Source: Promethearchaeota archaeon (GTDB taxonomy: Archaea > Asgardarchaeota > Lokiarchaeia > Sigyniarchaeales > SOKP01). Taken from it: a stretch of DNA of 33,582 nucleotides. The position numbers and the translations under genes were made by a program. Position 1 is the first letter of the stretch. Every line of letters starts with the position of its first letter. Shown piece after piece: positions 2,770-33,582 of the stretch. The DNA is taken from positions 1 to 33,582 of the forward strand of contig JAFGGO010000188.1 in assembly GCA_016930515.1 (NCBI GenBank), written 5' to 3'. Below the pieces are notes generated by a model. The model saw only the letters and a program-made list of their open reading frames with translations, was not told the DNA's origin and did no database searches.

Positions 2770-2771
2770 AA

Positions 2772-5132: not shown

Positions 5133-5161
5133 ATCTTTTTTATCAAATACCCATTTATAAT

Positions 5162-6898: not shown

Positions 6899-6933
6899 TT
6901 ATGAAAGGTCAAAATAAAAAAATATTAAAATTT

Positions 6934-6976
6934 AGAGTAAGATTCATTGCAAATGAATGACAACCTACTCTTTTTC
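6934..6976. terminator. Convergent terminator hairpin
   Basis: A stem with ATTCATT (6942-6948) and AATGAAT (6952-6958) around a GCA loop is extended by AGAGTA (6934-6939) pairing with TACTCT (6966-6971). A T-run follows on the plus strand, and A/T-rich runs lie on the other side. It sits between the convergent ATPase and the 45-aa gene and overlaps the latter's 3' end, so it could serve both directions. Confidence 0.55.
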
Positions 6977-7102
6977 TTCCTTGTATTCGGGATTGTTCGG
7001 ATTTAATTGATTCGACCTATTATCGACCGAAGCTTGATAAGCAGGGTTGTTCGGGTTCATTGAGTCGGACCTATCGTCGTTTGAACTGCGATTTTTTCCC
7101 AT
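6965..7102 (-). CDS. Small hydrophilic protein with two NPNNP repeats
   Basis: The 45-aa product starts at ATG 7102. A strong AAAGGAGGT Shine-Dalgarno lies just upstream, which is why I prefer it to the longer frame starting at 7168. It contains two copies of a short motif, DDRSDSMNPNNPAY and DNRSNQLNPNNPEY, and is otherwise polar and probably disordered. Similar RSxQxNPNNxAY motifs occur in many small uncharacterised prokaryotic proteins (from memory, not searched). It lies 38 bp downstream of the CD-NTase-like gene on the same strand and could be the last gene of that unit. Function unknown. Confidence 0.7.
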   Translation of the reverse strand: MGKNRSSNDDRSDSMNPNNPAYQASVDNRSNQLNPNNPEYKEEKE

Positions 7103-7140
7103 AAACTTTACCTCCTTTTGATTGTAATTTTCATAAGCGA

Positions 7141-8052
7141 TTAAAAATTTCCAAAAAGTGTCCTCCACTCTTCTCTCGTTGCATGACCAGAAGCTTTCTT
7201 TAGGGTATTATAAAATTCGTTCAATACCCCTTTAGAATAATCGTCTAATATGGATCTATTGGGATATATTTTATCGGGTATTAAGATCTCATTTCCAATA
7301 ATAAAAGTTGCTTGGTTAAAAAAGGTCTTTAAACCATTTTTCCAATCATTAATTTTAGACTTGAGAAAAATTTGTTCCACGAGGCGCTCTATTACATAGG
7401 ATTTCAAGGGCTTTCCCCAATGAATGTTCCAATATTTAAGCAGTAAGATGAGCTTGGTTGCTTTTCCGTTCCTTAACTTGTTTATCGCGCTCAAAGCTCT
7501 CAAATCCAAGTTAGGATTCACAAATTTCAAGTCATTCATTCCATTAGGCACCCGTAACACATCGTTGTTGTACTTGATAGCTGGAATGCAATCAAAATCG
7601 CTCGACTGAGAGTCATTAAAATATATTCTAATGGGTATGGCGTGGGCGTATGGAAAGTCTTTCAAGATTTCCATGTCAACATTATATCGATTTTTAAGTA
7701 TATCCAAGTGAGTTCTTAGCATGACGAACAATTGACTTCCACGATTAACTCGGTTACTGACGAAATTTCCCGCATAACCTTTCTCAACATATACGAGATA
7801 CGCGTCTACATCGTAATGTTTTCGAATGAGCGTGTGCCTATCAAAGCTTCCTCCGTAATTAAAGTGAAGCAGTTCCATGTCCAATTGATCGTTGAATGCG
7901 GGAAAATACATCGAGCGAGGTTCACGCGATATAACCTTGAGGTGACGAGTGAGATACGCAGTTAGGTTCTTGATGTTCTCTACTTTCCCTTCAGTCACTG
8001 AGATCCTATTAATTAACCGTTCTAACCTGTGTTCGATACTTTTTGGAGACAA
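7141..8052 (-). CDS. CD-NTase/OAS-like nucleotidyltransferase
   Basis: The 303-aa product has the core of the DNA polymerase beta-like fold as found in CD-NTases: GGS at 67-69 followed by DRHT, paired acidic residues in HYDVDAYLVYV (Asp81, Asp83) and a third acidic site in SDFDCIPAI (Asp152/154). The helical substrate domain has LILLLKYWN and LKSYVIERLVEQ, typical of OAS/cGAS/DncV relatives. In CBASS such enzymes make cyclic or linear oligonucleotide second messengers on phage infection. A nuclease gene lies immediately upstream on the same strand, as an effector would, but it is broken. The start is TTG 8052, with a TTTAAATA box about 30 nt upstream. Another template-independent nucleotidyltransferase is possible; the protein is too short for a standard archaeal CCA-adding enzyme. 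Confidence 0.75.
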   Translation of the reverse strand: MSPKSIEHRLERLINRISVTEGKVENIKNLTAYLTRHLKVISREPRSMYFPAFNDQLDMELLHFNYGGSFDRHTLIRKHYDVDAYLVYVEKGYAGNFVSNRVNRGSQLFVMLRTHLDILKNRYNVDMEILKDFPYAHAIPIRIYFNDSQSSDFDCIPAIKYNNDVLRVPNGMNDLKFVNPNLDLRALSAINKLRNGKATKLILLLKYWNIHWGKPLKSYVIERLVEQIFLKSKINDWKNGLKTFFNQATFIIGNEILIPDKIYPNRSILDDYSKGVLNEFYNTLKKASGHATREEWRTLFGNF

Positions 8053-8138: not shown

Positions 8139-8810
8139 TTAAAACAACTTCGTTTGATTCGATTCACGCACGATGGGACACTCAACATACCTCCATCCCT
8201 GCTCCCTGATGATGCTTTCGTACTTTTTCAAGCCACTATATTGAGGCGCAACTATGAAAAAAAAGTTGTACGATTTCGTTGATGGTACGGAATTTGAAAC
8301 ATACTTGGAATACACGTTGAGCTGCCTCATCAGGTCCCCTAAAGTGATGCTTTACGCTTTTACCTCAAAGATCAAGTTCACCAACGATTCTCCCTCCACT
8401 ACTTGAACCACTCCATTACCATCTGCTCTCCTCGGTTTGGGGTGGCTCACGCTGCACGAGACGTGCAAGTCTACGAACCCAATGTCTCTTCCCTCATCGT
8501 TTTCAACTGGCAATTCGAGCGTTTTTTTATGCGGTAGAAACTTCATTTGGTATCGTATTAATAACTCTTCAATGCGATCGTCGTATAAAGACTTGAAGTT
8601 AATTTTAACTAGTATTGGAAGTACCCATTCACGACATATCTCTTCAAGGCTTTCGTCCTTATACAACCACGTGATTATCTTGTCGTGAGACATTGACTTG
8701 AGATCAGGGTCCTTATAACCCATCTTTCCCATCCACGTGGCGTCCGCATTAAGCTTTTTTCTATAACGAGAATTGCTGCGATCGAACGACATTACAATAC
8801 TCTCCATCAT
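8139..8810 (-). pseudogene. PD-(D/E)XK nuclease gene interrupted by an in-frame TAA
   Basis: The reading frame runs from ATG 8810 to 8139 (223 sense positions) with one TAA at 8352-8354. The part before the stop has DIGFVDLHVSC and ends in LIFEVKA. The part after continues SITLGDLMRQLNVYSKY and FFFIVAPQ. Together they give the D...ExK...GxLxRQ..xY order of many PD-(D/E)XK nucleases, so the stop falls directly behind the catalytic ExK. Either the gene is inactive, or both pieces or a read-through product are made. It lies 86 bp upstream of the CD-NTase-like gene on the same strand, consistent with a nuclease effector. No SAVED or other ligand-sensing domain is visible in these 223 residues, which weakens the CBASS reading. 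Confidence 0.7.
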
Positions 8811-9004: not shown

Positions 9005-10216
9005 ATGATCGTTGATCCTAAACCCAAGAGCAAGGCGTTCGATTGGATTTCCACCCAGATGAAAAAAGGTGAGAAATTAGAGTTCGAACGGCTCGGGAAC
9101 TGGGTAATCGCGGGTTCGGGAAACTACGAAAAAACTCAGATCGACGGAAGGTACAGGGAAAGTTGCAACACTTATCGAGGGGCAATCACCTGCGAGCACC
9201 ACAAGACCGAAAGTCTGACGCCTCAATTCACGAGATGTCGCAAGTTTGACTGCGAAACCTGCTTTCCCGCCGCAGCCTCCGAAAAAGCGAGAGACATCGA
9301 ACAAAAATTGTTATCATTTAAGGAATCGGCAATGGATAAAGGAATCGACATTGGAAATTACGCAAGTATCGTCTTGACTTACAAGGCACCATTAACACAC
9401 CTAAAAACCTACGACGCCTTTAAAAAATTGAGACGGAAAGCAGGTTCGATCTTGAAAAGCAATGAACTTTTGGGTGGAGTAATCATTAATCACGCTTGGG
9501 TATTGAAGTGCGGTCATTGCAATCGGAAGCTAGCAGAGTGCCAATGCGAACAAACAAAACTGAAAGCCACAATTAATCACCACTTTCACGCCATCGGGTT
9601 TGGCTTCCTGACGCACTCGAAAGAGTTTCAGAAAAGAAATCCTGGTTGGGTGTACGTGAACCACGGCAGGCGAAAAAGCCTCCACGAAACCCTTTTTTAT
9701 TGCCTGAGCCACTGCGCGCTGTGGAGAAAACCAGACGGAAAATTATATCCCGCTTATGCATACTTCGGGTGGCTCAGCTCTCGCAAGTGCAGGATCGTGG
9801 ACATCAAAACCTCGTGGAGGGCTGTTAGATGCGGTCAATGCAAGAAAGAACTCAGGGAAATAACCGACGGGCTTTCTGTTTCGGGCGACTTACCTTTCTT
9901 CCCCGATAACACATCACTAAAAACGAAAGCCAAGAAGCTCGGAATCGCAATCGAAGGCAAGACGCCCAAAAAAATCAAGCTAGAAATACAAAAACGAGTG
10001 GTAAACAATCAAAATTTCAATTGCTCCCTCGACGAGAGCAGGGTGCGCTTTGGAAATCTCGTGAAATATCGCATCGTTTCGATAGCGTACGAGATAGCAG
10101 ACGTTCAGGATCTCAGAATTCTCATCAACCAGCTTCGCGCGTATAGAAAACGGGATCGAAAACGAGCGATAGAACTAGCAAAACTCGCTCTAAAAGCGAC
10201 TGGAGAATACGGATAG
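9005..10216 (+). CDS. rep: HUH-superfamily rolling-circle replication initiator (Rep)
   Basis: The 403-aa product carries the HUH metal-binding motif in NHHFHAIGFGF (His193 and His195) and a catalytic-tyrosine motif FYCLSH (Tyr232), the pair expected of archaeal plasmid and virus Rep proteins, which nick the double-strand origin and bind the 5' end covalently. Several Cys pairs are also visible: CRKFDCETC near residue 78, CGHCNRKLAECQC near 169 and CGQCKKEL further on. These probably form small zinc knuckles, seen in related archaeal Reps. The gene stands alone on the plus strand after a divergent promoter region. It is the best evidence that positions 2-10 kb derive from a plasmid-like element. 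Its stop codon sits inside a perfect 16-bp palindrome. Confidence 0.85.
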   Translation: MIVDPKPKSKAFDWISTQMKKGEKLEFERLGNWVIAGSGNYEKTQIDGRYRESCNTYRGAITCEHHKTESLTPQFTRCRKFDCETCFPAAASEKARDIEQKLLSFKESAMDKGIDIGNYASIVLTYKAPLTHLKTYDAFKKLRRKAGSILKSNELLGGVIINHAWVLKCGHCNRKLAECQCEQTKLKATINHHFHAIGFGFLTHSKEFQKRNPGWVYVNHGRRKSLHETLFYCLSHCALWRKPDGKLYPAYAYFGWLSSRKCRIVDIKTSWRAVRCGQCKKELREITDGLSVSGDLPFFPDNTSLKTKAKKLGIAIEGKTPKKIKLEIQKRVVNNQNFNCSLDESRVRFGNLVKYRIVSIAYEIADVQDLRILINQLRAYRKRDRKRAIELAKLALKATGEYG

Positions 10217-10227
10217 TCATGACTATC
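10212..10227. other. Perfect 16-bp palindrome over the rep stop codon
   Basis: GATAGTCATGACTATC is a perfect palindrome that includes the TAG stop of rep. It lies exactly between the plasmid-like block and the first copy of the dispersed repeat. It could be a terminator fragment, an operator or a recombination site; the sequence alone does not say. Confidence 0.35.
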
Positions 10228-10257
10228 GTATATATTCATTGGAACGCACATTCAAAC

Positions 10258-10449
10258 TTACTTTTCATCTTCTCGTTTTCTAATATCTCTGATTCTCACT
10301 AATTCACGGAATTCCTGCTGTTTTTGCCTTATGATCTTTCTCCGCTCGACGATCCCTATCCTGTTTTTCCTCAGCAAGTCCTCCAATTTCTCGGTAAACT
10401 CTTCGAGCGTCAGGTTCTTGTCCATGACCGAGTCGTAGTCGATGCTCAC
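10258..10449 (-). CDS. Repeat-encoded small charged peptide, copy A
   Basis: The 63-aa product starts at GTG 10449, preceded by GAGGTGAT. The conserved module begins MSIDYDSVMDKNLTLEEF and continues through EKLEDLLRKNRIGIVERR to a RQKQQEF end. It is a short, highly charged and mostly helical peptide of unknown function. The repeat has no stop, so the frame runs out of the repeat and gains a private basic tail RELVRIRDIRKREDEK before the TAA at 10258. This is one of the longest tails in the family. The promoter is inside the repeat (TTTAAATAA, 10510-10518 region). I recognise no homologous domain. Confidence 0.6.
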   Translation of the reverse strand: MSIDYDSVMDKNLTLEEFTEKLEDLLRKNRIGIVERRKIIRQKQQEFRELVRIRDIRKREDEK

Positions 10450-10561
10450 TGTGTGGTAATCACCTCAACTAATCTGTTAAAACGACTTGTAACGTAATTT
10501 TACAAGGGTTATTTAAACGAAATATCGAGCCCGCCTTTATATGTGATTGCATTTCGAAAGG
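10310..10561 (-). repeat. Dispersed repeat, copy A (complete)
   Basis: This is the reference complete copy. Its left edge is AATTCCTGCTG and its right edge is GATTGCATTTCGAAAG. Read on the minus strand it has, in order: TTTCGAAATGCAATCACATATA, a TTTAAATA TATA box, the inverted repeat CTTGTAA/TTACAAG (10486-10492 and 10500-10506), the Shine-Dalgarno GAGGTGAT, GTG, and about 140 nt of open frame without a stop. Similarity continues weakly for about 50 bp past the right edge (GAGGAGTTTTATAAGATCC) in copies A, B, D, M and O. No terminal inverted repeats or target duplications are evident. Confidence 0.9.
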
Positions 10562-10661: not shown

Positions 10662-10778
10662 ATGCGATTGATGACTCTCGAGACCGAAGAATTCAACGAG
10701 AGAAGAACTTCCGAAATCGATCGATTCAGTTTCGTACCATTTACCTTTAAATACGAGATTCGTCTAATGAATATATAA
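10662..10778 (+). CDS. Possible small upstream ORF before propeller gene 1
   Basis: The 38-codon frame starts at ATG 10662 with AAGGAG just upstream and ends at TAA 10778. Its last 19 residues (RFSFVPFTFKYEI, then LMNI) are almost identical to the end of the small frame at 12826. The conserved DNA also contains the TTTAAATA box and may be constrained as promoter rather than protein. It could be a real leader peptide or a coincidence of a conserved promoter. Confidence 0.3.
   Translation: MRLMTLETEEFNERRTSEIDRFSFVPFTFKYEIRLMNI
10718..10760 (+). promoter_or_regulatory. Shared propeller promoter element, copy 1
   Basis: The core TTCAGTTTCGTACCATTTAC followed by CTTTAAATA is nearly identical to 12894-12936 and 30906-30937, each upstream of a propeller gene. 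TTTAAATA is a TATA-like box, and an ATATATAA box follows at 10771-10778, about 27 nt before ATG 10805. A common activator or repressor site is inferred. Confidence 0.55.
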
Positions 10779-10804
10779 TAAAGACTAAATTGAAATTTAA
10801 AAAA

Positions 10805-12439
10805 ATGAAAAGTATAATTTCGAAGAATAGAACAATTTCAACGCTTTTTTTTACGATATTCCTTTTCTCTCTCTCACTTGGGTTCACGATATCTTTTGGA
10901 GGGATGATCAATGGAGATGCCAGGTACATTCCGATGAGTTCAAATGTTCTTAAAACTTCGCAATCTCCAGATTGGAGCTCGGAAAAGGTTGCAATATGCA
11001 CGAAAATAGGAGAGCAATATAAATCCGAATCAATAATTGACGAAGATGGGAATATATTCGTTGTATGGAGAGATAATAGAAATGATGTGGAATCTTTTGA
11101 TTGGGATATTTTCGTTCAAAAGATCAATTCTTCTACAGGAACAGTTCAATGGACGGAAAACGGCGTAGCTGTGTGTGTATCGTCCGAAGAACAGCATTCG
11201 TACAAGCTCATTAGTGATGGTGCTGGAGGGGTGATTATCGTATGGGAGGATTTTAGGAATGATTATTCAGACATTTACGCCCAAAGAATTGATCCTATTG
11301 GTAATCCCCTATGGACTCCAAATGGAACAATTGTGTGTAATTCCATTAGTTGTCAATATAATCCTGGCATTATAAACGATGGTTCTGGAGGTGCAATTAT
11401 TGTTTGGGAGGATTATAGAAGCGGAAGCGGAAAGTGTATTTACGCCCAGAGAATTAACTCCACGGGACACGCGCAGTGGACTGCAAACGGAACGGTAATC
11501 CGCGCTGAAACTGAAAGTCAAACTAATCCCATTTTAATCAATGACGGTTATAATAACGCCATAATTGCGTGGGTAGAATACTCCGATCCTAGCATCTTAT
11601 TTGTTCAAAAAATAAATTCCTCAGGACAACCACAATGGACACCTGAAGGAGTGATAATCAGTACCGATGTAGAAGGTTATCAATTCCACAAAATAATAAG
11701 TGACGGTCTTGGAGGCGCGATAATCACATGGGAAGATATAAGAGAAGGGGAAAATGACGAAAACATATATGCACAGAGATTAAACTCAAGTGGATATGAA
11801 CAATGGGCTTCGGGAGGTCTTTCTGTCTGCAATTCAACAAATAGTCAAACAAGTCCTTTTCTTATAAGCGATGGTTCTGGAGGAGCAATCATTATTTGGG
11901 AAGATGCAAGAAACGGTAATTACCATGATATTTACGCTCAAAAAATCAATCGAATAGGTCAAGAGCAATGGACCAACAATGGTGTAACAATTTGTTTTCC
12001 GTGGGCTCATTCGAGCTTTCACCAGTCTCAAAAGGCCACAGAATTTGTCTTGGGTTTGTGCGGTTTGGTTAGTGATGAAACAGGAGGCACCATTATATCT
12101 TGGAAAGAGTGGAACGGAAACACGGGAAGAATCTATGCACAAAAAATTGATACTAAAGGCAACACCCAATGGAAAACAAATGGTGCTACAGTTTATACAG
12201 GATATTCGGTATCGAGTATGAATTTAGTTAGCGATGGTTCTGGGGGAGCCGTTGTTATCTGGGCAGAATCATCATATCCAGATATTTACTGCAAGCACAT
12301 TCCGTCTCAGGGATTTCCAGAATCCTCTGCAATAGCGGGATATGAATTACATATTATATTGGCGTCTTTGGGAATCGTAATGGTCGTGATTGGAATTTTA
12401 AGAATTAAAAAACGGAATTTTCAACACGAACTCTTTTAA
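10805..12439 (+). CDS. Surface protein 1: eight-repeat beta-propeller with C-terminal membrane anchor
   Basis: The 544-aa product starts at ATG 10805, about 27 nt after an ATATATAA box (TTG 10790 is the alternative). It has an N-terminal signal peptide or anchor (SIISKNRTISTLFFTIFLF). Eight degenerate repeats of about 52 residues follow, with consensus NG..VC....Q..P..ISDG.GGAIIVWED.R...DIYAQRINS.G..QW. The count of eight fits an eight-bladed beta-propeller. Repeat 7 is longer, with a 10-15 residue insertion. The C-terminus has AIAGYELH, a hydrophobic helix and a basic tail (RIKKRNF), so the protein should be anchored outside the cell. The ligand is unknown; adhesion or recognition is plausible. 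It lies directly right of repeat copy A. Confidence 0.85.
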   Translation: MKSIISKNRTISTLFFTIFLFSLSLGFTISFGGMINGDARYIPMSSNVLKTSQSPDWSSEKVAICTKIGEQYKSESIIDEDGNIFVVWRDNRNDVESFDWDIFVQKINSSTGTVQWTENGVAVCVSSEEQHSYKLISDGAGGVIIVWEDFRNDYSDIYAQRIDPIGNPLWTPNGTIVCNSISCQYNPGIINDGSGGAIIVWEDYRSGSGKCIYAQRINSTGHAQWTANGTVIRAETESQTNPILINDGYNNAIIAWVEYSDPSILFVQKINSSGQPQWTPEGVIISTDVEGYQFHKIISDGLGGAIITWEDIREGENDENIYAQRLNSSGYEQWASGGLSVCNSTNSQTSPFLISDGSGGAIIIWEDARNGNYHDIYAQKINRIGQEQWTNNGVTICFPWAHSSFHQSQKATEFVLGLCGLVSDETGGTIISWKEWNGNTGRIYAQKIDTKGNTQWKTNGATVYTGYSVSSMNLVSDGSGGAVVIWAESSYPDIYCKHIPSQGFPESSAIAGYELHIILASLGIVMVVIGILRIKKRNFQHELF

Positions 12440-12472: not shown

Positions 12473-12625
12473 TTAAGAGATGATAAATTCCTGCTGTTTT
12501 TGCCTTATGATCTTTCTCCGCTCGACGATCCCTACCCTGTTCTTTCGCAAAAAATCCTCCAATTTCTCGGTAAATTCCTCGAGCGTCAGGTTCTTGTCCA
12601 TGACCGAGTCATAGTCGATGCTCAC
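12473..12625 (-). CDS. Repeat-encoded small charged peptide, copy B
   Basis: The 50-aa product starts at GTG 12625, with GAGGTGGT upstream. The conserved module is intact (EKLEDFLRKNRVGIVERR), with Leu-to-Phe and Ile-to-Val changes relative to copy A. It leaves the repeat after QQEF and gains only IIS before the TAA at 12473. Function unknown. Confidence 0.5.
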   Translation of the reverse strand: MSIDYDSVMDKNLTLEEFTEKLEDFLRKNRVGIVERRKIIRQKQQEFIIS

Positions 12626-12736
12626 TTGATAACACCACCTCAACTAAAACGATATTTTGCCTTGTAATAGCATTCTACAAGGGTTATTTAAAAAGAAGAT
12701 CGAGTCATCGTATATATGTGATTGCATTTCGAAAGG
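12486..12736 (-). repeat. Dispersed repeat, copy B (complete)
   Basis: This complete copy lies between propeller genes 1 and 2. The hairpin is CCTTGTA...TACAAGG around 12660-12681 and the TATA-like TTTAAATAA lies next to it. The left edge AATTCCTGCTG begins 46 bp after the stop of propeller gene 1. Similarity to copy O extends past the right edge through the whole upstream region of the following propeller genes. Confidence 0.9.
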
Positions 12737-12825
12737 AAAAACGCGAGTGGTTTATGAAGTTTGGTTCTCAGTGAATAATAAACAATCGAACTTGACGAGC
12801 GAGAATTAACAATGAGGACGCTAAA

Positions 12826-12954
12826 ATGGAAGTAAAACCGAGAAGAACGCTTGAAACAATCGAGAAATTAGACGGAAAAAGAAGGCACACAAACGATCGA
12901 TTCAGTTTCGTACCATTTACCTTTAAATACGAGATTATTCTAATGAATATATAA
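12826..12954 (+). CDS. Possible small upstream ORF before propeller gene 2
   Basis: The 42-codon frame runs from ATG 12826 (GAGGA about 8-10 nt upstream) to TAA 12954 and begins MEVKPRRTLETIEKL. The C-terminal FSFVPFTFKYEI...LMNI matches the frame at 10662. The related frame before propeller gene 6 (30833-30886) starts MEVKPRRTL but stops after 17 codons, which argues that peptide conservation is not strict. Confidence 0.3.
   Translation: MEVKPRRTLETIEKLDGKRRHTNDRFSFVPFTFKYEIILMNI
12894..12936 (+). promoter_or_regulatory. Shared propeller promoter element, copy 2
   Basis: The core TTCAGTTTCGTACCATTTAC plus CTTTAAATA is the same as at 10718-10760. An ATATATAA box at 12947-12954 stands about 27-30 nt before ATG 12981. 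Matching upstream DNA suggests these propeller genes are co-regulated. Confidence 0.55.
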
Positions 12955-12980
12955 CCTAAGATAATTTAAATAAAAGAAAA

Positions 12981-14801
12981 ATGAAAACGAAAACTTCGAA
13001 AAAAAACATCCATATTAAGTTCTTGTTATCGATACTCCTCATATTTCTTGCCCTTGGATTTTTTTCTAATTTAGGCGTTTTAAACCCCGAGAACGATGAA
13101 AACAAACTGATGGATTCAAATCTTAAAACTTCCCAATCCGTTCATTGGGATTCACGTGAGGTTGCTATATGCACGGAAGACGGAGATAAGTATTATTTTA
13201 CATCAATCTACGACGAATTGGGCTCGAGCTTTATCGCGTGGACTGATCAGAGGGACGAAAGTGAAGATAGGTTGTATCTGCAAAAGCTCAATTCGTCCAC
13301 GGGACAAGTTCAGTGGATCGAAAACGGCTTGTTAATTTCTAATAATGTTATGTATCATGATGGAGCATATATGATTAGTGATGGTGCTGGTGGAGTCATC
13401 ATTGCGTGGGAAGACCATAGAACAGGAAGCGCTGACAAGTACGGCGATATCTACGCCCAGAGAGTTAATTCTACTGGAGATATTCTTTGGACAACTGGTG
13501 GCGTGGCAATCTGTTCCACTAACGATTCTCAATGTCAACCTCATATCGTTAGCGATGGATGTGGTGGTGCAATTATCACGTGGTCTGATGGAAGGAATGG
13601 AGCATATAATTACGATATTTACGCCCAAAGAATCAATTCAACGGGACACACGCAATGGATTGCAAACGGAACAGCCGTTTGTAACGAATTGAACTCTCAA
13701 GTTTACCATGCGGTCGTTAGCGACGGATTGGGAGGGGCAATCGTATTATGGCAAGTTTATCTTGAATTAAACGACGCTCTTTTTGCCCAAAGAATCAACT
13801 CCACCGGAAATGTGCAATGGATCGAGGAGGGCGTTAAAATATCCGATTACCTCGGATCTTGGGGCAATTTTCAATTAATTAGCGACAACAATGGAGGCGC
13901 AACCACAGTCTGGCTTGATTGGGAGAATGGACAGTTTAATCCGAAGGTTTACGCACAGAAAATAGATTCAAATGGGACCTTGCAATGGGGGAATTATGGC
14001 ATCCCAGTTTGTACATCAACGGGGAATCAAAATGCTCCAAGAATCATAGGAGACGGGGATGAAGGCGTCATCATCTTGTGGAAGGACGATAGAAACGGAA
14101 ATTACAATATATACGCTCAAAAAATTAATCTTAATGGTGAAGAACAATGGACTCACGATGGCGTTAAAATATGCAATCCAAAATTAGTTTATTCATTAAA
14201 TTTGGTTAGCGATGGGACTGGAGGAGCCATTATTGCGTGGTTAGAATGGAGCGGAAACACGGGAAGAATTTACACTCAGAGAATCGATGACGAAGGTAAT
14301 ACAAAATGGACTCCTAATGGTGTTGCTGTCGTGACGGCATCTGGGATGGAGCGCATGTCATTAGTTAGTAACGGGCTTGGTGGTGCGATCGTATTCATGA
14401 ATAAATACGAGTACCCTTATAATAACATATACGCTCGTTGCATTCCTCACGAGGGCATTGCCAATCCATCTTCTAATCTCGAATTAATCTTGATCATAGT
14501 ACTTTCAATTGTGATAATTTCGATCATAGCAGTGAGTATTTTCGTGGTTCTTAAAAAACGAAAAGCTGGAAAACTCTCTGGTGAAGCAGCTCGCGATAAG
14601 ACCATAGAAAAATTTATGAAAAAGCATAATAGACAAACTCTTGATCCTGATTTTAGGTTAGGATTAGCGCGTCATTACCAAGATAAGGGAGATATCGATC
14701 AAGCGATTCTTAATTACAATATAGTACTCGAGTTAGACCCAGACAATCAAGAAGCCCGAGCGAGCTTGAATTCCATCAACCCTCTCAATCACGAATCCTA
14801 A
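12981..14801 (+). CDS. Surface protein 2: eight-repeat propeller, membrane helix and cytoplasmic TPR
   Basis: The 606-aa product has a signal peptide (KKNIHIKFLLSILLIFLAL) and eight propeller repeats of the same family (for example DGAGGVIIAWEDHR and GDIYAQRVNSTG). A strong membrane helix follows at about 500-524 (ILIIVLSIVIISIIAVSIFV), then KKRK. Unlike its paralogues it continues for about 78 residues that should be cytoplasmic, including a TPR motif: FRLGLARHYQDKGDIDQAIL and ELDPDNQEARASL. This layout could pass an external binding event to an internal partner or tether an internal complex to the surface. The partner is unknown. It lies between repeat copies B and C. Confidence 0.85.
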   Translation: MKTKTSKKNIHIKFLLSILLIFLALGFFSNLGVLNPENDENKLMDSNLKTSQSVHWDSREVAICTEDGDKYYFTSIYDELGSSFIAWTDQRDESEDRLYLQKLNSSTGQVQWIENGLLISNNVMYHDGAYMISDGAGGVIIAWEDHRTGSADKYGDIYAQRVNSTGDILWTTGGVAICSTNDSQCQPHIVSDGCGGAIITWSDGRNGAYNYDIYAQRINSTGHTQWIANGTAVCNELNSQVYHAVVSDGLGGAIVLWQVYLELNDALFAQRINSTGNVQWIEEGVKISDYLGSWGNFQLISDNNGGATTVWLDWENGQFNPKVYAQKIDSNGTLQWGNYGIPVCTSTGNQNAPRIIGDGDEGVIILWKDDRNGNYNIYAQKINLNGEEQWTHDGVKICNPKLVYSLNLVSDGTGGAIIAWLEWSGNTGRIYTQRIDDEGNTKWTPNGVAVVTASGMERMSLVSNGLGGAIVFMNKYEYPYNNIYARCIPHEGIANPSSNLELILIIVLSIVIISIIAVSIFVVLKKRKAGKLSGEAARDKTIEKFMKKHNRQTLDPDFRLGLARHYQDKGDIDQAILNYNIVLELDPDNQEARASLNSINPLNHES

Positions 14802-14832: not shown

Positions 14833-15003
14833 TTAAAATAAAAATTTATAAGTGAAGGTGCGAAACTCTTGGGTCTTAACGCGTATGATCTTTCTCCGCT
14901 CGACGATCCCTATCCTGTTCTTCCGAAGCAAATCTTCCAATTTCTCGGTAAACTCCTCCAAGGTTAAATTCTTGTCCATGACCGAGTCGTAGTCGATGCT
15001 CAC
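14833..15003 (-). CDS. Repeat-encoded small charged peptide, copy C
   Basis: The 56-aa product starts at GTG 15003 behind GAGGTGAT. The module is intact, but its end differs (IIRVKTQEF) and it gains the tail RTFTYKFLF from unique DNA before the TAA at 14833. The region NLTLEEF uses different codons (aat tta acc ttg) for the same residues as copy A, a sign of protein-level constraint. Confidence 0.5.
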   Translation of the reverse strand: MSIDYDSVMDKNLTLEEFTEKLEDLLRKNRIGIVERRKIIRVKTQEFRTFTYKFLF

Positions 15004-15114
15004 TGTGTGGTAATCACCTCAACTATTCTGTTAAAACGACTTGTAATGTAATTTTACAAGGTTTTTTAAATAAGACATCGAGTCATCGTATATATGTGAT
15101 TGCATTTCGAAAAG
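14862..15114 (-). repeat. Dispersed repeat, copy C (complete)
   Basis: This complete copy lies between propeller gene 2 and a plus-strand TA operon. The hairpin is CTTGTAA/TTACAAG as in copy A, and the two share the same leader variant (GTGTGGTAATCACCTC), so A and C form a subgroup. The left 20 bp is more divergent (ACTCTTGGGTCTT). Confidence 0.85.
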
Positions 15115-15451: not shown

Positions 15452-15736
15452 ATGATTGAAATCCGCTTTCACCCGATTGCAACCGAAGACATGAGGGACA
15501 TTTACACCTATCACGCTCAATTTTCCTTGCAATACGCCGATTCTCTTATAGAAGGGCTTTTAAACACGATAGAAGTTCTCAGAGAGTTCCCCGAAATAGG
15601 TCGAAAATACCCAGAGAACGAACTATATCGTCAATTAATTTATCAAAATTACAGAATCATATACAAATTCGATAAACAAGAAAATAAAATCATCGTGATG
15701 ATCATCGTGCATTGTTCTCGACAATTAAGAATCTAA
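15452..15736 (+). CDS. ParE/RelE-superfamily toxin
   Basis: The 94-aa product has the family pattern: an N-terminal strand IEIRFHPIATEDMRDI, a helical hairpin, EFPEIGRKYPE, then the core RQLIYQNYRIIYKF and C-terminal VHCSRQLRI. RelE members cleave ribosome-bound mRNA and ParE members poison gyrase; motifs alone do not decide which applies. The frame is intact. Repeat copy D abuts the stop codon directly. Confidence 0.85.
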   Translation: MIEIRFHPIATEDMRDIYTYHAQFSLQYADSLIEGLLNTIEVLREFPEIGRKYPENELYRQLIYQNYRIIYKFDKQENKIIVMIIVHCSRQLRI

Positions 15737-15903
15737 AGGTCTCGAGCGTTAAATTCTTGGTTGTCCGTGACCGATTCGTGGTCGATGCTCACTGTTTCAA
15801 CACCACCTCAACCAATCTATAGTTAAGCCTTGTAATGCTATTTTGCAATGGCTTTTTAAACGAAATATCGGGTTGTCCTTTACATGTGATTGCATTTAGA
15901 AAG
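15737..15903 (-). repeat. Dispersed repeat, copy D (3' half missing, +4 bp variant)
   Basis: The promoter, hairpin (CCTTGTAATGC...GCAATGG), Shine-Dalgarno and GTG (15792) are kept, but the C-terminal half of the peptide is gone and the copy begins immediately at the ParE stop codon. It carries the 4-bp GTTG insertion (plus strand) that changes DKNLTL to DNQEF. The leftover frame is 19 codons (15733-15792). Confidence 0.85.
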
Positions 15904-15980
15904 AGAAAATTAAGAGTTTTTCAAGATGATTTTAAAGAAAATTAAAGTAGTCATTACAAATGAGTTAAATTTATAATTTA

Positions 15981-16058
15981 GCTAGCGCTGGAGGATTTGG
16001 TCAAGATCCTAATGGTTATATGGAGCAAAAACATAAATATTTTGAACTTATAACATAA
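15981..16058 (+). other. Orphan 25-codon coding-like remnant
   Basis: In the 169-bp gap between repeat D and the next TA operon an open stretch ASAGGFGQDPNGYMEQKHKY ends at TAA 16058. It lacks a clear start and looks like the 3' stump of a lost gene. Support is weak. Confidence 0.2.
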
Positions 16059-16703: not shown

Positions 16704-16815
16704 GAATTCCTGCTGTTTCTGCCTTATTATCTTGCGCCGCTCGACGATCCCTATCCTGTTTTTCCTCAACAAATCCTCCAATTTCTCGGTGAATTTCTCG
16801 AGCGTCAAGTTCTTT
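16704..16815 (-). repeat. Dispersed repeat, copy E (3' half only)
   Basis: Only the C-terminal half is present (NLTLEKFTEKLEDLL to QKQQEF); promoter and start are missing. It lies 9 nt downstream of the DUF5615 stop codon on the same strand and in the same frame, so read-through of a single TAA would fuse it to the toxin. The protein sequence is conserved despite the missing start. Confidence 0.85.
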
Positions 16816-17518: not shown

Positions 17519-17715
17519 TTACGAAGTAAATCCTCCAATTTCTCGGTAAACTCTTCGAGCGTCAGGTTCTTGGTTGTCCGTGACCGAGTCGTAGTCGATG
17601 CTCACTTGATATAACCACCTCAACCAATCTGTAGTAATGCCTTGTAATAGCATTTTACAAGGATTTTTTAAAAAGAAGATCGGGTCATCGTATATATGTG
17701 ATTGCATTTCGAAAA
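17519..17715 (-). repeat. Dispersed repeat, copy F (3' end missing, +4 bp variant)
   Basis: Promoter, hairpin (CCTTGTAATAGC...TACAAGG), GAGGTGGT and GTG 17605 are present. The copy ends inside EDLLRK and carries the same GTTG insertion as D, J and M, so its frame (MSIDYDSVTDNQEPDARRV) stops at 17519. With copy E it brackets the DUF433-DUF5615 module; the two share about 55 bp, so this is not a simple insertion into one repeat. Confidence 0.85.
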
Positions 17716-17768
17716 ATTCCAGTTTTATGCCAGATGGATTTTTATTTCTAATAAATAATAAGAATGAT

Positions 17769-20403: not shown

Positions 20404-20583
20404 TCTTATCATGCATATACCAGCGGATATAAAACACATATTAAATTCCTGTTGTGTCTGCCTAATGATCTTGCGCCTTTCGACAATCCCGATGCGATTC
20501 TTCCTGAGTAAATCCTCCAATTTCTCGGTAAACTCCTCGAGCGTCAGGTTCTTGTCCATGAACGAGTCGTAGTCGAGGCTCAC
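20347..20583 (-). CDS. Repeat-encoded small charged peptide, copy G
   Basis: The 78-aa product starts at GTG 20583. The conserved module is intact apart from conservative changes (SLDYDSFMDKN, RQTQQEF), with many synonymous substitutions relative to copy A (for example AAT CGC ATC GGG ATT). It has the longest tail (NMCFISAGICMIRLYGIY and on), which is antisense to the end of the vapC pseudogene and therefore probably fortuitous. Confidence 0.45.
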   Translation of the reverse strand: MSLDYDSFMDKNLTLEEFTEKLEDLLRKNRIGIVERRKIIRQTQQEFNMCFISAGICMIRLYGIYSFYEVNLIRIFVV

Positions 20584-20693
20584 TGTTGTAGTACCACCTC
20601 AACCAATCTTTAGTTACACCTTGTAGTACGATCCTACCAAGGCCATTTAAATATGACATCGAGCGAACCTTTACATGTGATTGCATTTCGAAA
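20444..20693 (-). repeat. Dispersed repeat, copy G (complete)
   Basis: This complete copy lies after the decayed VapBC module. The hairpin arm is the CCTTGGTAGG...CTACAAGG variant also seen in M and N. It starts 40 bp after the vapC pseudogene stop. Confidence 0.9.
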
Positions 20694-20729
20694 TACATCT
20701 ATCTATAAAAAAATTACTTTTTATGATAA

Positions 20730-21289: not shown

Positions 21290-21463
21290 TTACAAGAAAA
21301 TGCTTAATGAGGGAATAAACTTTAATTCCCACGTCTTTTGCCTCATGATCTTGCGCCGCTCGACGATCCCAATGCGGTTCTTGCGCAGTAAATCCTCGAG
21401 TTTCTGGGTAAACTCCTCGAGCGTCAGGTTCTTGTCCGTGACCGAGTCGTAGTCGATGCTCAC
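21290..21463 (-). CDS. Repeat-encoded small charged peptide, copy H
   Basis: The 57-aa product starts at GTG 21463. The module is intact (SVTDKNLTLEEFTQKLEDLL, NRIGIVERRKIMRQ) with a divergent end KTWE and the tail LKFIPSLSIFL. It shares the Thr variant (TDKN) of the +4 bp group but lacks the insertion, so it may represent the parent of that group. Confidence 0.5.
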   Translation of the reverse strand: MSIDYDSVTDKNLTLEEFTQKLEDLLRKNRIGIVERRKIMRQKTWELKFIPSLSIFL

Positions 21464-21574
21464 TGTTTCGATACCACCTTAACTAAAACAATATTTTGCC
21501 TTGTAATAGCGTTCTACAAGGGTTATTTAAAAATAACATCGAGTCATCGTATATATGTGATTGCATATCGAAAA
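21324..21574 (-). repeat. Dispersed repeat, copy H (complete)
   Basis: This complete copy lies between the ParE pseudogene module and propeller gene 4. The hairpin is CCTTGTAATAGCG...TACAAGG. The Shine-Dalgarno region reads AAGGTGGT instead of GAGGTGGT. The right edge is GATTGCATATCGAAA. Confidence 0.9.
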
Positions 21575-21681
21575 AAATCGAATATAAATATTGCAAAAAG
21601 TACCCCCATAGATTTAAATTCCAATTACTAATCCTTTAAATAATAAGATCATAAAATCTTCAAAACAAGGAAGAAAAGTTA

Positions 21682-23334: not shown

Positions 23335-23697
23335 ATTCGTTAAAATTCAAATTCTTTTTATTTTTTTTCAAATTAACAGATTTTCAAAAAAGAGATTATT
23401 TTTAATTTTTGAATTTTGATTGAAATCAGAAAATCATTAATTTAAAGTCGACAATAATTTCAAATATGTCATTTCTTTTAATGTTGAGAAAATTAAATGG
23501 TCTTTTTTTTGTACAATCCGTTTATTTTTCTTTTTTCGATAAAAAATTGCTATATTTGATTAATTTCAGTAGTTATTCAAGTTACGACATTATTTGAGGA
23601 ATGATATTCCCATTTTTCGTCGGAATTAATTTTATGATTTTTAAAATTCGATTAAGTTTGTAAATTTAAAAATGCCCTCAAACGGAGAAATCATAAA
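23335..23697. other. 363-bp AT-rich gap without recognisable genes
   Basis: I see no convincing frame, repeat copy or hairpin here. The stretch is very AT-rich with T-runs just after propeller gene 4, where a terminator would be expected. It may hold decayed cassette DNA. Confidence 0.5.
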
Positions 23698-23800
23698 TCT
23701 TTGCGTTTTTTGTCTATGATCTTTCTCCGCTCGACGATTCCTATCCTGTTCTTGCGCAGCAGGTCCTTAAACGATATATTAGTGCCTTATATGTTGAGAA
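23698..23800 (-). repeat. Dispersed repeat, copy I (internally deleted)
   Basis: The 3' half (DLLRKNRIGIVERRKII) is followed directly by TTAAACGATATATTAGTGCC and TTATATG, which resembles the promoter edge of complete copies (TTTAAACGAAATATCG, TTTATATG). The middle, with hairpin, start and N-terminus, is deleted. It lies downstream of the minus-strand VapBC module. Confidence 0.7.
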
Positions 23801-24499: not shown

Positions 24500-24597
24500 A
24501 TGATTATTATTAAGCTAAGATTATATAAATAGATATCTATTTAGATCTATTTACTTTCATTATATGATTCTCAAAAATTATTAAATTCGATATAATA

Positions 24598-24852
24598 AAT
24601 TCCTGCTGTTTCTGCCTGATGATTTTCCTTCTTTCGACGATTCCGATGCGGTTTTTGCGGAGTAGATCTTACAATTTCTCGGTAAACTCCTCGAGCGTCA
24701 GGTTCTTGGTTGTCCGTGACCGAGTCGTGGTCGATGCTCACTTGATTACACCACCTCAACCAATCTTTAGTTAAGCCTTATAATGCTATTTTGCAATGGC
24801 TTTTTAAATACGATATCGAGTTAACCTATATATGTGATTGCATTTCCAAAAA
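24598..24852 (-). repeat. Dispersed repeat, copy J (complete length, coding frame broken)
   Basis: The length is full, but it carries the +4 bp GTTG insertion after the start (GTG 24741; DNQEPDARGV) and, in the original frame, a TAA replacing Glu in EKLED. The N-terminal frame runs on to 24571 as nonsense. The hairpin is the weaker CCTTATAATGC...GCAATGG form shared with D. The left edge is AATTCCTGCTG. Confidence 0.9.
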
Positions 24853-26915: not shown

Positions 26916-27000
26916 TAATTTCTGAGTCTTTTGCTTTATGATCTTTCTCCGCTCGACGATCTCTATCCTGTCTTTCCTCAGTAAATCCTCGGGCTTTTCG
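26916..27000 (-). repeat. Dispersed repeat, copy K (3' half only)
   Basis: Only about 85 bp remains: FSEKPEDLLRKDRIEIVERR to IIKQKTQKL. It lies about 30 bp downstream of the ParE gene at 27031, on the same strand but in a different frame. It shares the KDRI variant with copy L, its neighbour. Confidence 0.8.
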
Positions 27001-27636: not shown

Positions 27637-27736
27637 AGAGTTTCTGCGCTTTCTGGCGCACGATCTTTCTCCGCTCGACGATCCCTATCCTGTCTTTCCT
27701 CAGTAAATCCTCCAATTTCTCGGTATACTCTTCGAG
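27637..27736 (-). repeat. Dispersed repeat, copy L (3' half only)
   Basis: The remnant reads LLEEYTEKLEDLLRKDRIG to KIVRQKAQKL and then a stop. It lies just downstream of the ParE pseudogene and in the same frame, separated by two stop codons. Promoter and start are absent. Confidence 0.8.
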
Positions 27737-28209: not shown

Positions 28210-28356
28210 GATACAGTCCTCAAGTAAAATATCAAAATCAAATATAATAAACCTATTGATTTTATATATTATAAAATTCATGTATGAAAAGTCATGCTTC
28301 CTCTTTCAATAAATATGGGAAAAATAAAGCCCATTGCAAAAAATTCAAGAGAAATA

Positions 28357-28609
28357 AATTCTTGCTGTTTCTGGCGTATGATCTTTCTCCGCTCGACCAT
28401 CCCTATCCTGTTCTTTCGCAGCAAATCCTCCAATTTCTCGGTAAACTCCTTGAGCGTCAGGTTCTTGGTTGTCCGTGACCGAGTCGTAGTCGATGCTCAC
28501 TTGATATAACTACCTCAACCAATCTTTAGTAACGCCTTGTAGTACCATCCTACCAAGGCTATTTAAAAAGAATATCGGGTTAACCTATATATGTGATTGC
28601 ATTTCGAAA
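28357..28609 (-). repeat. Dispersed repeat, copy M (complete length, +4 bp variant)
   Basis: The copy is full length with GTG 28500 but has the GTTG insertion, so the N-terminal frame (DNQEPD...) does not reach the intact C-terminal half (LTLKEFTEKLEDLLRK to QKQQEF). The hairpin is CCTTGGTAGG...CTACAAGG as in G. Similarity to A and D continues past the right edge (GGAGTTTTTCAAGATCC). Confidence 0.9.
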
Positions 28610-28689
28610 AGAAGAGAAATAAAGGAGTTTTTCAAGATCCTTTCTAAACGATCAATAAACATGGAGAACTTGGTAAAGAAACGCTTAGA

Positions 28690-28717
28690 TTTATAAGTAT
28701 GCAATGCATATTTGCAT
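28690..28717 (+). promoter_or_regulatory. Promoter and operator of VapBC copy 2
   Basis: A TTTATAAG box (28690-28697) is followed by ATGCAA (28699-28704) inverted against TTGCAT (28712-28717), just before the vapB ATG at 28720. The same sequence precedes VapBC copy 1 with one mismatch (ATGTAA). The position fits VapBC autoregulation. Confidence 0.55.
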
Positions 28718-28719
28718 AT

Positions 28720-28950
28720 ATGAGAACGAGCATAATCATTGACGATTCCATGAAAGACAAGTGGTGGGACATTAAAAAGGAAGCTGCGAGGTTAAACATG
28801 AAAATCAGCGAATATATCGTTTTTTGCCACGAAATTAGGAAGAAAAACGAGACAAAAGACAAGTTACTTGAAATTTTAGGAAATCCTCTCGAGAATGGAG
28901 CGAAAAACATCGACGCCATTGCTGCAAGCAAGAACACGTGGAAAACATGA
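28720..28950 (+). CDS. vapB: VapB ribbon-helix-helix antitoxin, copy 2 (intact)
   Basis: The 76-aa product starts at ATG 28720 (MRTSIIIDDSMKDKWWDIKK), which supplies the RHH beta-strand; the second helix is MKISEYIVFCHE. GTG or ATG codons further upstream lie in the operator. The C-terminus (NIDAIAASKNTWKT) overlaps vapC by ATGA. It is the parent-like copy of the decayed module at 19799. Confidence 0.8.
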   Translation: MRTSIIIDDSMKDKWWDIKKEAARLNMKISEYIVFCHEIRKKNETKDKLLEILGNPLENGAKNIDAIAASKNTWKT

Positions 28951-29354
28951 AAGGAATCGATTCAAACGTCATCATTTATGCCCTTAACAAGGACTTGCCC
29001 GAGCACGAACCTTGCAGGGTCCTCCTCGAAAAAGTAGCCAAGGGACTTGAAACTATTGCCATCCCTGCCGTCGTTTTGATGGAGAGTTACCACGTTCTCG
29101 TGAGAGCGTATAAATTCGCGCCTTCTGAAGTAAAAAAACGCTTGGTTTCTATCATTGAATCCGAAAACATAACCATATTGGGACAGGGATTATCTTCGAT
29201 CTTGCTGGCGTTTGATGTTGCCGAGGATTTCGACACGGGCGGGCGCGATTCGCTCATAGCAGCCTGTCTATTGGAAAACAACATCAAGGAAATTTATTCT
29301 CACGATAGCGATTTTGATAAAATTCGACTAATAAAAAGAATTGATCCTGTCTAA
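28947..29354 (+). CDS. vapC: VapC PIN-domain toxin, copy 2 (intact)
   Basis: The 135-aa product starts at ATG 28947. PIN motifs are MKGIDSNVIIYAL (Asp), VVLMESYHVL (Glu), DTGGRDSLIAACLL and SHDSDFDKI (acidic residues), all present. The pair with 19996-20403 is about 90 percent identical by eye, showing recent duplication of the whole module. A CTGTCTA-AA-TAGACAG hairpin covers its stop codon. Confidence 0.85.
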   Translation: MKGIDSNVIIYALNKDLPEHEPCRVLLEKVAKGLETIAIPAVVLMESYHVLVRAYKFAPSEVKKRLVSIIESENITILGQGLSSILLAFDVAEDFDTGGRDSLIAACLLENNIKEIYSHDSDFDKIRLIKRIDPV

Positions 29355-29364
29355 ATAGACAGTA

Positions 29365-29526
29365 TCATGGGATTAAAGAGGGGGTAAACTCCTGCTGTTC
29401 CTGTCGGATGATCTTCCGTCGCTCGACGATGCCGACCTTGTTCTTTCTCAGCAGGTCCTCGAGCTTTTCGGTGAACTCTTCGAGCGTCAGGTTCTTGTCC
29501 ATGACCGAGTCGTAGTCGATGCTCAC
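29365..29526 (-). CDS. Repeat-encoded small charged peptide, copy N
   Basis: The 53-aa product starts at GTG 29526 behind GAGGTGGT. The module is intact (NLTLEEFTEKLEDLLRKNKV, RQEQQEF) with the tail TPSLIP. Third-position changes such as GAG CTT TTC TCG leave the residues unchanged relative to copy A. Confidence 0.5.
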   Translation of the reverse strand: MSIDYDSVMDKNLTLEEFTEKLEDLLRKNKVGIVERRKIIRQEQQEFTPSLIP

Positions 29527-29636
29527 TTGATTACACCACCTCAACCAATCTTTAGTTACGCCTTGTAGTAGCGTTCTACCAAGGCCATTTAAAAATAACA
29601 TCGGGTTAGCCTTTATATGTGATTGAATTTCGAAAA
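29386..29636 (-). repeat. Dispersed repeat, copy N (complete)
   Basis: This complete copy lies between VapBC copy 2 and the AbrB-PIN module. The hairpin is CCTTGGTAGAAC...CTACAAGG. The coding half is the most GC-rich of all copies. Confidence 0.9.
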
Positions 29637-29785
29637 CGAGTAGTGTTTAATAATATAGGTTTTAAGAAATTTTAGAAACAAAGAACGAATAAACCAATAT
29701 TAAAGAAGAATAGAGGCAAAAGAGATGATTGGTAATATTTATTAAATGTCATTTACATTATTAAAATGACAGAGATTTTTATTAG

Positions 29786-30043
29786 GTGTTTAAAACGACT
29801 GAGAAATTAACGCAGAAAGTATCTTCAAATGGGAGGATAGTAATACCCAAGGAGTGGAGGGATAAATTAGCCATCGATGATACCAATTTAGTTGAAATGG
29901 AATTAAACGACGATAATGTAATTCTAATCAGAAAAAAGCTACACCCTCTCGAAATAGAGGATAACCTATTTGATGGAGTTTCTCCTTTCACGGACGAAGA
30001 ATTGGAAGATGTAAAAAAATCATTATTTCCAACTGAAGATTAA
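29786..30043 (+). CDS. AbrB/MazE-type antitoxin
   Basis: The 85-aa product starts at GTG 29786. It has KLTQKVSSNGRIVIPKEWRD and LVEMELNDDNVILIRKK, the swapped-hairpin AbrB core, followed by an acidic tail (DEELEDVKKSLFPTED) that would bind the toxin. The PIN toxin follows after 15 bp. It is different from the orphan AbrB-type gene at 2068. Confidence 0.85.
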   Translation: MFKTTEKLTQKVSSNGRIVIPKEWRDKLAIDDTNLVEMELNDDNVILIRKKLHPLEIEDNLFDGVSPFTDEELEDVKKSLFPTED

Positions 30044-30058
30044 TTTATTTGAATTAAC

Positions 30059-30463
30059 ATGACAGAAAAAGCAGTAATTGATGCACAAGTCCTCTTTTAT
30101 TTCCATTACAATTATAAGAAAATCCCCATGATGCTTCAGGAACTGAAGAAAAAGGTAATTGAAGGAGAAATAACCGTAATAATTCCCACTATTGCTATTT
30201 CTGAATTGATTTGGAAAATGCGAAGGGCAGGCAAATTAGAAGCAGTTAAAAAAGCCGTAGAGAGATGGGAACAATCTGAAAATGTGATCATCGACAATTT
30301 TGACATGTCGATCGTAAAGTTTATGCTTAAAAACACTAAGAGTCACGAATTACACGATGAAATCATAGCCATGATATGTAAAAAATACGGTACGAGCATC
30401 ATTTATTCTACTGATAAAAAATTTAAAGAAATATTTAATTTGAATCTGAGATCTTGGAAATAG
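30059..30463 (+). CDS. vapC: PIN-domain toxin of the AbrB-PIN module
   Basis: The 134-aa product has EKAVIDAQVLFYF (Asp), PTIAISELIWKM (Glu), HELHDEIIAMI and GTSIIYSTDKKFKEI (acidic residues), the PIN active-site order. The frame is intact. Partnered with an AbrB-type rather than RHH antitoxin, it is a separate VapC lineage from the other two. It lies between repeats N and O. Confidence 0.85.
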   Translation: MTEKAVIDAQVLFYFHYNYKKIPMMLQELKKKVIEGEITVIIPTIAISELIWKMRRAGKLEAVKKAVERWEQSENVIIDNFDMSIVKFMLKNTKSHELHDEIIAMICKKYGTSIIYSTDKKFKEIFNLNLRSWK

Positions 30464-30632
30464 AAATAGTGCAATAAAAGGATAAATCCTTAAATTCCTG
30501 CGTTTTCTGGCGCACGATATTGCGCCGTTTGACGATCCCAATACGGTTCTTGCGGAGTAGATCTTCCAATTTCTCGGCAAACTCTTCGAGCGTCAGGTTC
30601 TTGTCCGTGACCGAGTCGTAGTCGATGCTCAC
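30435..30632 (-). CDS. Repeat-encoded small charged peptide, copy O
   Basis: The 65-aa product starts at GTG 30632. The module is intact with several changes (EEFAEKLEDLL, GIVKRRNIVRQKTQEF). The tail KDLSFYCTISISKISDSN comes from DNA antisense to the end of the PIN gene. Confidence 0.45.
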   Translation of the reverse strand: MSIDYDSVTDKNLTLEEFAEKLEDLLRKNRIGIVKRRNIVRQKTQEFKDLSFYCTISISKISDSN

Positions 30633-30740
30633 TTGATAACACCACCTCAACCAACAAGTAATGACGCCATAATATCAAGTTAAAAGGGCTTTTTAAAAAG
30701 AAGATCGAGTCATCGTATAAATGTGATTGCATTTCGAAAA
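30492..30740 (-). repeat. Dispersed repeat, copy O (complete, hairpin degenerate)
   Basis: The full-length copy precedes propeller gene 6. Unlike other copies its hairpin region is scrambled (GCCATAATATCAAGTTAAAAGG), while TTTAAAAA, Shine-Dalgarno and GTG are kept. Similarity to copy B continues on the right through the next 200 bp, so repeat and propeller cassette may have been duplicated together. Confidence 0.9.
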
Positions 30741-30905
30741 GGATGGAAAGCGAGGAGTTTATCAAGTCAGGTTCTCAATAAATAATAAACAACGAAACTT
30801 GACATGTGAGAATGAACGACGAGGACGAGAAAATGGAAGTAAAACCGAGAAGAACGCTTGGTACAATCGATATATTTAATGGATAGAGAAAGCACAAAAA
30901 CTTTT

Positions 30906-32614: not shown

Positions 32615-32773
32615 AATCTTTTTTTTCATTAAATATAAAAAAGTCAATGGAGAGGTACGAAATTCCTGAGTCTTTTGCCTTATTATCCTTCTCCGATCGA
32701 CGATCCCTATCCTGTTTTTCCTCAGCAAGTCCTCCAATTTCTCGATAAACTCTTTTAAAGTCAAGATTCTCAT
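32600..32773 (-). CDS. Repeat-encoded peptide, copy P, with its own ATG
   Basis: Although the repeat's promoter and GTG are missing, an ATG at 32773, 7 nt after the DUF5615 stop, opens MRILTLKEFIEKLEDLLRKN and continues IVDRRRIIRQKTQEF. The tail (RTSPLTFLYLMKKK...) runs to 32600, just over the end of propeller gene 6. It could be translated as the last gene of the DUF433-DUF5615 operon. Confidence 0.4.
   Translation of the reverse strand: MRILTLKEFIEKLEDLLRKNRIGIVDRRRIIRQKTQEFRTSPLTFLYLMKKKILCFQ
32660..32773 (-). repeat. Dispersed repeat, copy P (3' half only)
   Basis: It keeps the left edge AATTCCTGAG and the C-terminal half and ends at CTCAT, where the complete copies have the NLTLEE codons. 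It lies directly downstream of a minus-strand DUF433-DUF5615 module, as copy E does. Confidence 0.85.
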
Positions 32774-33488: not shown

Positions 33489-33582
33489 AAATTCCTGCGT
33501 TATTGGCGCACGATCTTGCGCTGCACGACGATCTATACCATGTTTTTCCGCAGCAGGTCCTCGAACTTTTCGGTAAACTCCT
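33489..33582 (-). repeat. Dispersed repeat, copy Q (cut by the window edge)
   Basis: The C-terminal half is visible up to the edge (EFTEKFEDLLRKN) but decayed, with two in-frame stops (KNMV*IVVQRKIVRQ*). It shows that the array continues beyond the window. Confidence 0.8.

Follow-up and report, generated by a model that had tools for sequence, protein, structure and literature searches.

What is a repeat that carries the start signals and open reading frame of a gene and then runs to its own edge without a stop codon? We examined this question in the window, which takes up contig C66 (33,582 bases) from end to end. The contig belongs to a 4.0 Mb metagenome-assembled genome (completeness ~94%), and the closest relatives of this genome that bear a name are Candidatus Lokiarchaeota and Lokiarchaeia. 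An earlier note, made from the sequence alone, had described a repeated peptide with no stop codon, so that every copy ends in a private tail, and had offered two explanations, namely selection on the peptide or an origin in the 5′ end of some larger gene. The repeat is ~250 bases long and is present in 17 copies (A–Q) in the window, all 17 on the minus strand. The array, which spans ~32 kb, runs on into contig C37, whose first base abuts the last base of the window inside copy Q, with one base missing; C37 holds copies R and S, plus weaker remnants near 7.1 and 9.1 kb. A search of the whole 4.0 Mb genome confined the repeat to C66 and C37, always in the same orientation, and Rfam returned nothing matching anywhere in the window. 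Between the repeat remnants on C37 (L023:2946-7023), at the right end of the array, lie large CheB/CheR-like and PAS/histidine-kinase genes and a response regulator, putative names from sequence reading.

Copy A (10258..10449, minus strand) is a complete small gene of 63 aa with a GTG start and its own TAA stop. Its 5′ part (10450..10561, minus strand) has a Shine–Dalgarno sequence (SD), a TATA-like TTTAAATA, the palindrome CTTGTAA-N7-TTACAAG between them, and a conserved edge TTTCGAAATGCAATCACATAT, after which comes a TATA-like element that faces outward, to the plus-strand gene. Six other copies, all on the minus strand, consist of the promoter and codons 1–47 with the frame open: B (12486..12736), C (14862..15114), G (20442..20695), H (21322..21575), N (29385..29637), and O (30491..30741). 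As the earlier note reported, the seven open copies A, B, C, G, H, N, and O have the SD, the GTG, and an open frame, followed by tails of 3–31 residues (16, 3, 9, 31, 10, 6, and 18, respectively); that of O begins KDL, like the native gene of the Lokiarchaeal genome G002. A 4-nt frameshifting insertion is common to six copies: D (15742..15903, 5′ part only, ending near codon 16), F (17525..17716, 5′ part without the 3′ end), J (24596..24852, full length, with an in-frame TAA), M (28355..28611, full length), Q (33489..33582, cut by the contig end, continuing at G000:C37:1-157 and also carrying stops), and R, those in the window again on the minus strand.

In seven copies the promoter side is gone, and each of them (7/7) is directly downstream of a co-directional gene. 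Among these minus-strand 5′-truncated copies, E (16704..16814) adjoins the 3′ end of a minus-strand DUF5615 gene, I (23695..23767, with a single-base deletion) lies downstream of a minus-strand VapBC-like module, K (26917..26990) and L (27639..27736) adjoin minus-strand ParE and ParE-like genes, respectively, and P (32657..32754) is downstream of a second minus-strand DUF5615 gene, with a new ATG right after the toxin stop. Only G among the twelve promoter-keeping copies has a co-directional right neighbour, so that the promoter is lost in 7/8 copies with such a neighbour versus 0/11 without (p = 1.6e-4). The residues EKLEDLLRKN and IGIVERR, which the note had found to persist in truncated copies, are indeed kept there (e.g., E, L, P, and S). 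Full copies are sharp at both edges, TTTCGAAATGCAATCACAT and CAGGAATT; nearly all copies other than A end at QEF, and many 3′ edges have the plus-strand sequence TA|AATTCC. Six copies reach into an outward-facing TATA-like element, which, judged from sequence, may serve the plus-strand cassette gene. Most full copies have an inverted repeat, CCTTGTA-N-TACAAGG, between the TATA-like sequence and the SD (window 10450-10500 and equivalents), which suggests a candidate operator.

The parent of the repeat is a small gene. A profile search with the peptide returned stand-alone genes of 60–87 codons in five other Lokiarchaeal genomes, and copy A aligns with them end to end. Its last 16 residues, codons 48–63, are kept in copy A alone among the copies and recur in the relatives' genes: the C-terminus RELVRIRDIRKREDEK, before the stop, aligns with QEFKDLTRTRDVRNRN, QEFRDRTRRRDMRS, and similar tails, the native C-terminus in G002 being KDLTRTRDVRNRN. 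Because the relatives' genes carry the same last 16 residues, copy A is a whole gene that ends at a stop of its own, and the tail is native, contrary to what the note had claimed for it. Copy A thus shares full-length homology with a small Lokiarchaeal gene family (60–87 aa), C-terminus and stop included, and the other copies are without the last 16 codons. The repeat is therefore the promoter plus the first 47 codons, the front three quarters, of a 63-codon Lokiarchaeal gene, and the private tails of the copies other than A are best read as chance read-through into unrelated DNA. The second suggestion of the note, that the peptide stems from the front of something larger, was essentially right, the parent being a gene of 60–87 aa and not one for a long protein. 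AlphaFold2 predicts two helices in the 63-aa protein (residues 15–28 and 33–61, pLDDT 83), and the cut at codon 47 falls within the second.

The small protein has no significant family in Pfam, PHROGs, or NCBIfam, and no viral contigs with the peptide or its family were found. A related domain forms the C-terminus of conserved proteins of ~425 aa, one of which is encoded in this genome. We also observed an adjacent gene pair (~345–366 and 425–430 aa) conserved in Lokiarchaeal genomes (L060:642-3048, on G000:C47; L066; L067), the second gene of which has a C-terminus homologous to the small gene. A HEAT-repeat gene, conserved beside the small gene in G002 and G029, was tried as a pointer to the native location; in this genome it is on C152, where the small gene is absent, and this candidate was rejected.

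We compared the seven open copies codon position by codon position. Differences at positions 1, 2, and 3 were 0.17, 0.047, and 0.33, respectively, the pooled pN/pS was 0.157, and double synonymous changes (e.g., TTG to CTC) were frequent. The note had held that equal conservation in the non-coding parts of the repeat would speak against selection on the peptide; intact copies differ by 0.26 in the non-coding 5′ part, versus 0.05 at position 2 and 0.33 at position 3. The peptide was thus under purifying selection during the history of the copies, and in this respect the suggestion of selection stands (pN/pS of 0.16). It does not extend to their present state: six copies are frameshifted, seven lack the 5′ part, and the decayed sister pair Q–R has a dN of 0.10 and a dS of 0.12. 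Most copies are relics, because six share the 4-nt frameshift and seven are 5′-truncated, and to the shared lesions are added the stops in J and Q and the deletion in I. Most simply, each copy would have been under selection for as long as it belonged to a complete gene. Third-position variability was 0.10 in codons 2–15 versus 0.44 in codons 16–47, and the low variability of the former may come from recombination or from constraint at the DNA level. Codon-level conservation across repeats can come from the parent gene and need not imply that the repeats are translated.

Order along the array was not reflected in divergence over codons 19–46 (Mantel r = -0.10, p = 0.78), nor was distance to copy A (rho = 0.25, p = 0.38), and intact copies were slightly nearer A (p = 0.046). 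Since divergence is independent of array order, no chronological accretion is visible, and we rejected both chronological accretion and tandem duplication on this ground.

Between the copies lie cassettes comprising six secreted repeat-protein genes, which are paralogs, and TA or TA-like modules (ParE, PIN/VapC, MazE, DUF433/DUF5615, TumE-like). Examples on the plus strand are one of the six genes for a secreted or membrane repeat protein with a DUF4114-like match (10790..12439), a ParE toxin gene (15452..15736), a VapBC-like module with a PIN toxin (28699..29354), and a MazE-like antitoxin with a PIN toxin (29786..30463). Other short direct repeats occur at L112:12165-12254 and 15934-16020 and at L109:321-401 and 2836-2914, the latter flanking a secreted repeat-protein gene in another part of the genome. 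GC3 is 0.64 in the small gene, 0.53 in the gene for the putative HUH protein described below, and 0.62 in that for a HerA-type ATPase, versus 0.25–0.45 in most cassettes; in composition the small gene resembles the HUH–HerA block and is unlike most cassettes. The HerA-type gene is left of the array (window 2739-8052), together with genes for an oligonucleotide-cyclase-like (SMODS/CD-NTase) protein and for a 797-aa protein whose C-terminus is weakly PD-(D/E)XK/Cas4-like, a group that resembles a defence cluster.

Copy A is convergent with a gene (9005..10216, plus strand) for a 403-aa protein with an HFH motif and Cys pairs, a putative HUH-type rolling-circle endonuclease or Rep. The HFH motif is invariant across six homologs, and a candidate catalytic Tyr is present. 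The HUH assignment is provisional, because Pfam, NCBIfam, and PHROG gave the 403-aa protein no significant family match and its structure model was poor (pLDDT 47); a fold search with the model returned no informative match, and no HUH protein of this kind was found in viral contigs or in plasmid and phage records. Two further paralogs are present in the genome, at loci C5 and C101, and at all three loci (C66, C5, and C101) a small-gene tail (DVRKRE before the stop, or similar) lies antisense just downstream of the HUH gene. The tails beside the C5 and C101 paralogs are NERDVRKRE and FRKGNDVRKRDE, each followed by a stop, and at both loci the gene breaks off at roughly the same codon, the part upstream of it being absent. 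Divergent from the HUH gene in the window is a 152-aa fragment (8352..8810, minus strand) of a 274-aa protein that is also divergent from the HUH gene at C5.

Just past the HUH stop codon is a candidate site for this protein, ACTATCGTATATAT (10221..10235, plus strand). The sequence ATCGTATATAT is exact at the 5′, promoter-side edge of copies B, C, F, and H, and of Q on C37, with 5 exact matches in the window versus 0.02 expected. The sequence TAACTATCGTATA, or a one-base variant, is found 3′ of the HUH gene at C5, at C101 (twice), in a distant homolog in genome G150, and in the window (as TGACTATCGTATA). The right-end motif of the HUH element, ATACTAGTAC followed by ATACTAT, has no occurrence in C66 or C37, and the array is therefore not simply the interior of a C5-type element. 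At C101 (L077:8650-9750), two left-truncated right ends of the HUH element lie in direct orientation, the right end being constant and the left end variable (one retains HUH from codon 175, the other from about codon 391), with ~0.8 kb between them that includes a 222-aa ORF. This arrangement is as expected from one-ended insertion and is a miniature of what is seen in the window, with the difference that the full copies of the array have two sharp edges instead of one constant and one variable end.

The best explanation of the locus, which we hold with moderate confidence, is that cassettes accreted at a single point of the small gene in a process linked to the HUH element. A mobile element encoding the putative HUH endonuclease would have the small gene at its end, and the candidate site TCGTATAT at the small-gene end would also be the repeat edge. 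HUH-dependent insertion or strand exchange, occurring again and again, would have gathered the TA modules and secreted repeat-protein genes; every such event would have left or brought a piece from the 5′ side of the small gene and broken the gene at codon 47/48. One complete copy (A) would have remained beside the HUH gene, and the displaced copies would decay, with purifying selection having acted earlier, in the complete gene. The parent gene, the truncation point, the array, the link of the small gene to HUH at three loci, and the common site are observations; from them we infer the enzyme, its reaction, and the role of the site. The gene fragment, copied between cassettes beside a putative mobile-element nuclease, therefore marks where an integron-like array is joined and is no novel type of peptide. 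Several points count against this explanation: the HUH assignment depends on the conserved HFH motif, divergence is independent of array order, the candidate HUH site is at the edge opposite to the constant one at codon 47 and hence does not account for it, and in seven copies the site edge is absent. An array of this kind turned up in no second genome, and no excised circle or empty site was seen. A bolder version, which we put forward tentatively and think somewhat improbable, is an integron-like gene-capture platform of Asgard archaea, in which an HUH endonuclease would replace the tyrosine integrase, the end of a small element-borne gene would be the attachment site, and cassettes would bring a fresh promoter and 5′ end of the small gene.

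The serious rival is ordinary amplification, doubtful in our judgement and still a real possibility, in which secreted-protein genes and an adjoining small-gene fragment were duplicated, and later duplications, TA insertions, and homologous recombination shuffled the locus with no dedicated enzyme. That the six secreted-repeat genes are paralogs fits it, as do the likeness of their upstream regions (12740-12929 vs 30747-30936, 83%; 10685-10827 vs 12861-13003, 76%) and the homology for recombination that 250 bp repeats provide. However, copies next to each other are no more similar than copies far apart, the same sharp edges bound many unrelated TA families in either orientation, and the small-gene tail is tied to HUH at two other loci. 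The sharp edges of the full copies, one of them with an HUH-like site, and the frequent TA|AATTCC at the other would also suit a non-autonomous mobile element (MITE/PATE-like) moved in trans by the HUH protein in ~20 insertions. We regard this as unlikely: all copies have one orientation and lie in one region of a 4.0 Mb genome, unlike scattered insertions, and terminal inverted repeats were not seen at the copy edges.

The two remaining explanations seem very improbable to us. If each copy were a working peptide gene, with a function diversified by a tail of its own, low pN/pS and start signals conserved in seven copies would be natural; the shared frameshift in six copies, the stops in others, the native stop of copy A, and the complete genes that are its homologs in other genomes all speak against it, and a peptide family with private functional tails is not supported. 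A divergent integron, with the repeats as attC sites of an unseen IntI integrase (CALIN), would account for the cassette-and-repeat layout and for content rich in TA and secretory genes, and enrichment of integrons has been reported for Asgard MAGs (PMC9668308). Against this stand the derivation of the 250 bp repeats from a protein gene, the absence of GTTRRRY or RYYYAAC cores common to at least five copies at one alignment position, and the single tyrosine recombinase of the genome, the sole PF00589 match, which is on another short contig (C90:234-755), off C66 and C37.

What appeared to be a stop-less peptide family can now be read as a record of how an Asgard archaeon, from a group whose mobile elements are poorly known, captured genes. 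With candidates for the enzyme and for the DNA site, and with the parent gene in hand, integrase-free gathering of cassettes in archaea becomes testable.

The array works in the manner of an integron or of a tandem island, and it invites comparison with three known systems. Archaeal integrons reported so far have IntI and attC (PMC9668308). The repeated boundary elements in one orientation between cassettes that mark integrons and CALINs are present here, as are single-gene or TA cassettes, TA-rich content, and an adjoining gene for a putative DNA-processing enzyme. Unlike integrons and CALINs, the array has genes in both orientations and no order gradient, its repeat is a 250 bp fragment of a protein gene, and it is not filed as an integron because there is no integrase of the IntI type on its contigs and no attC core.

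IS91 and ISCR are rolling-circle elements with HUH transposases that leave one-ended solo ends, capture neighbouring genes, and have an outward promoter at the element end. The Lokiarchaeal locus may resemble them in these features, its HUH-type protein being putative and its pairing of a constant with a variable end being seen at C101 and not in the C66 array. It differs in that the repeats in the window are just a 250-bp piece of the element end and not a transposase, and in that no model of a known HUH family matches the 403-aa protein. The third comparison is with genomic islands that stand in tandem at a single attachment gene, such as SCC at rlmH and islands at tRNA genes. The array fragments differ from theirs in being 5′ ends with a promoter, and a search for integrases of the tyrosine type found none on C66 and C37; as in such islands, insertion is inside a gene, one complete copy is kept, and fragments mark the junctions.
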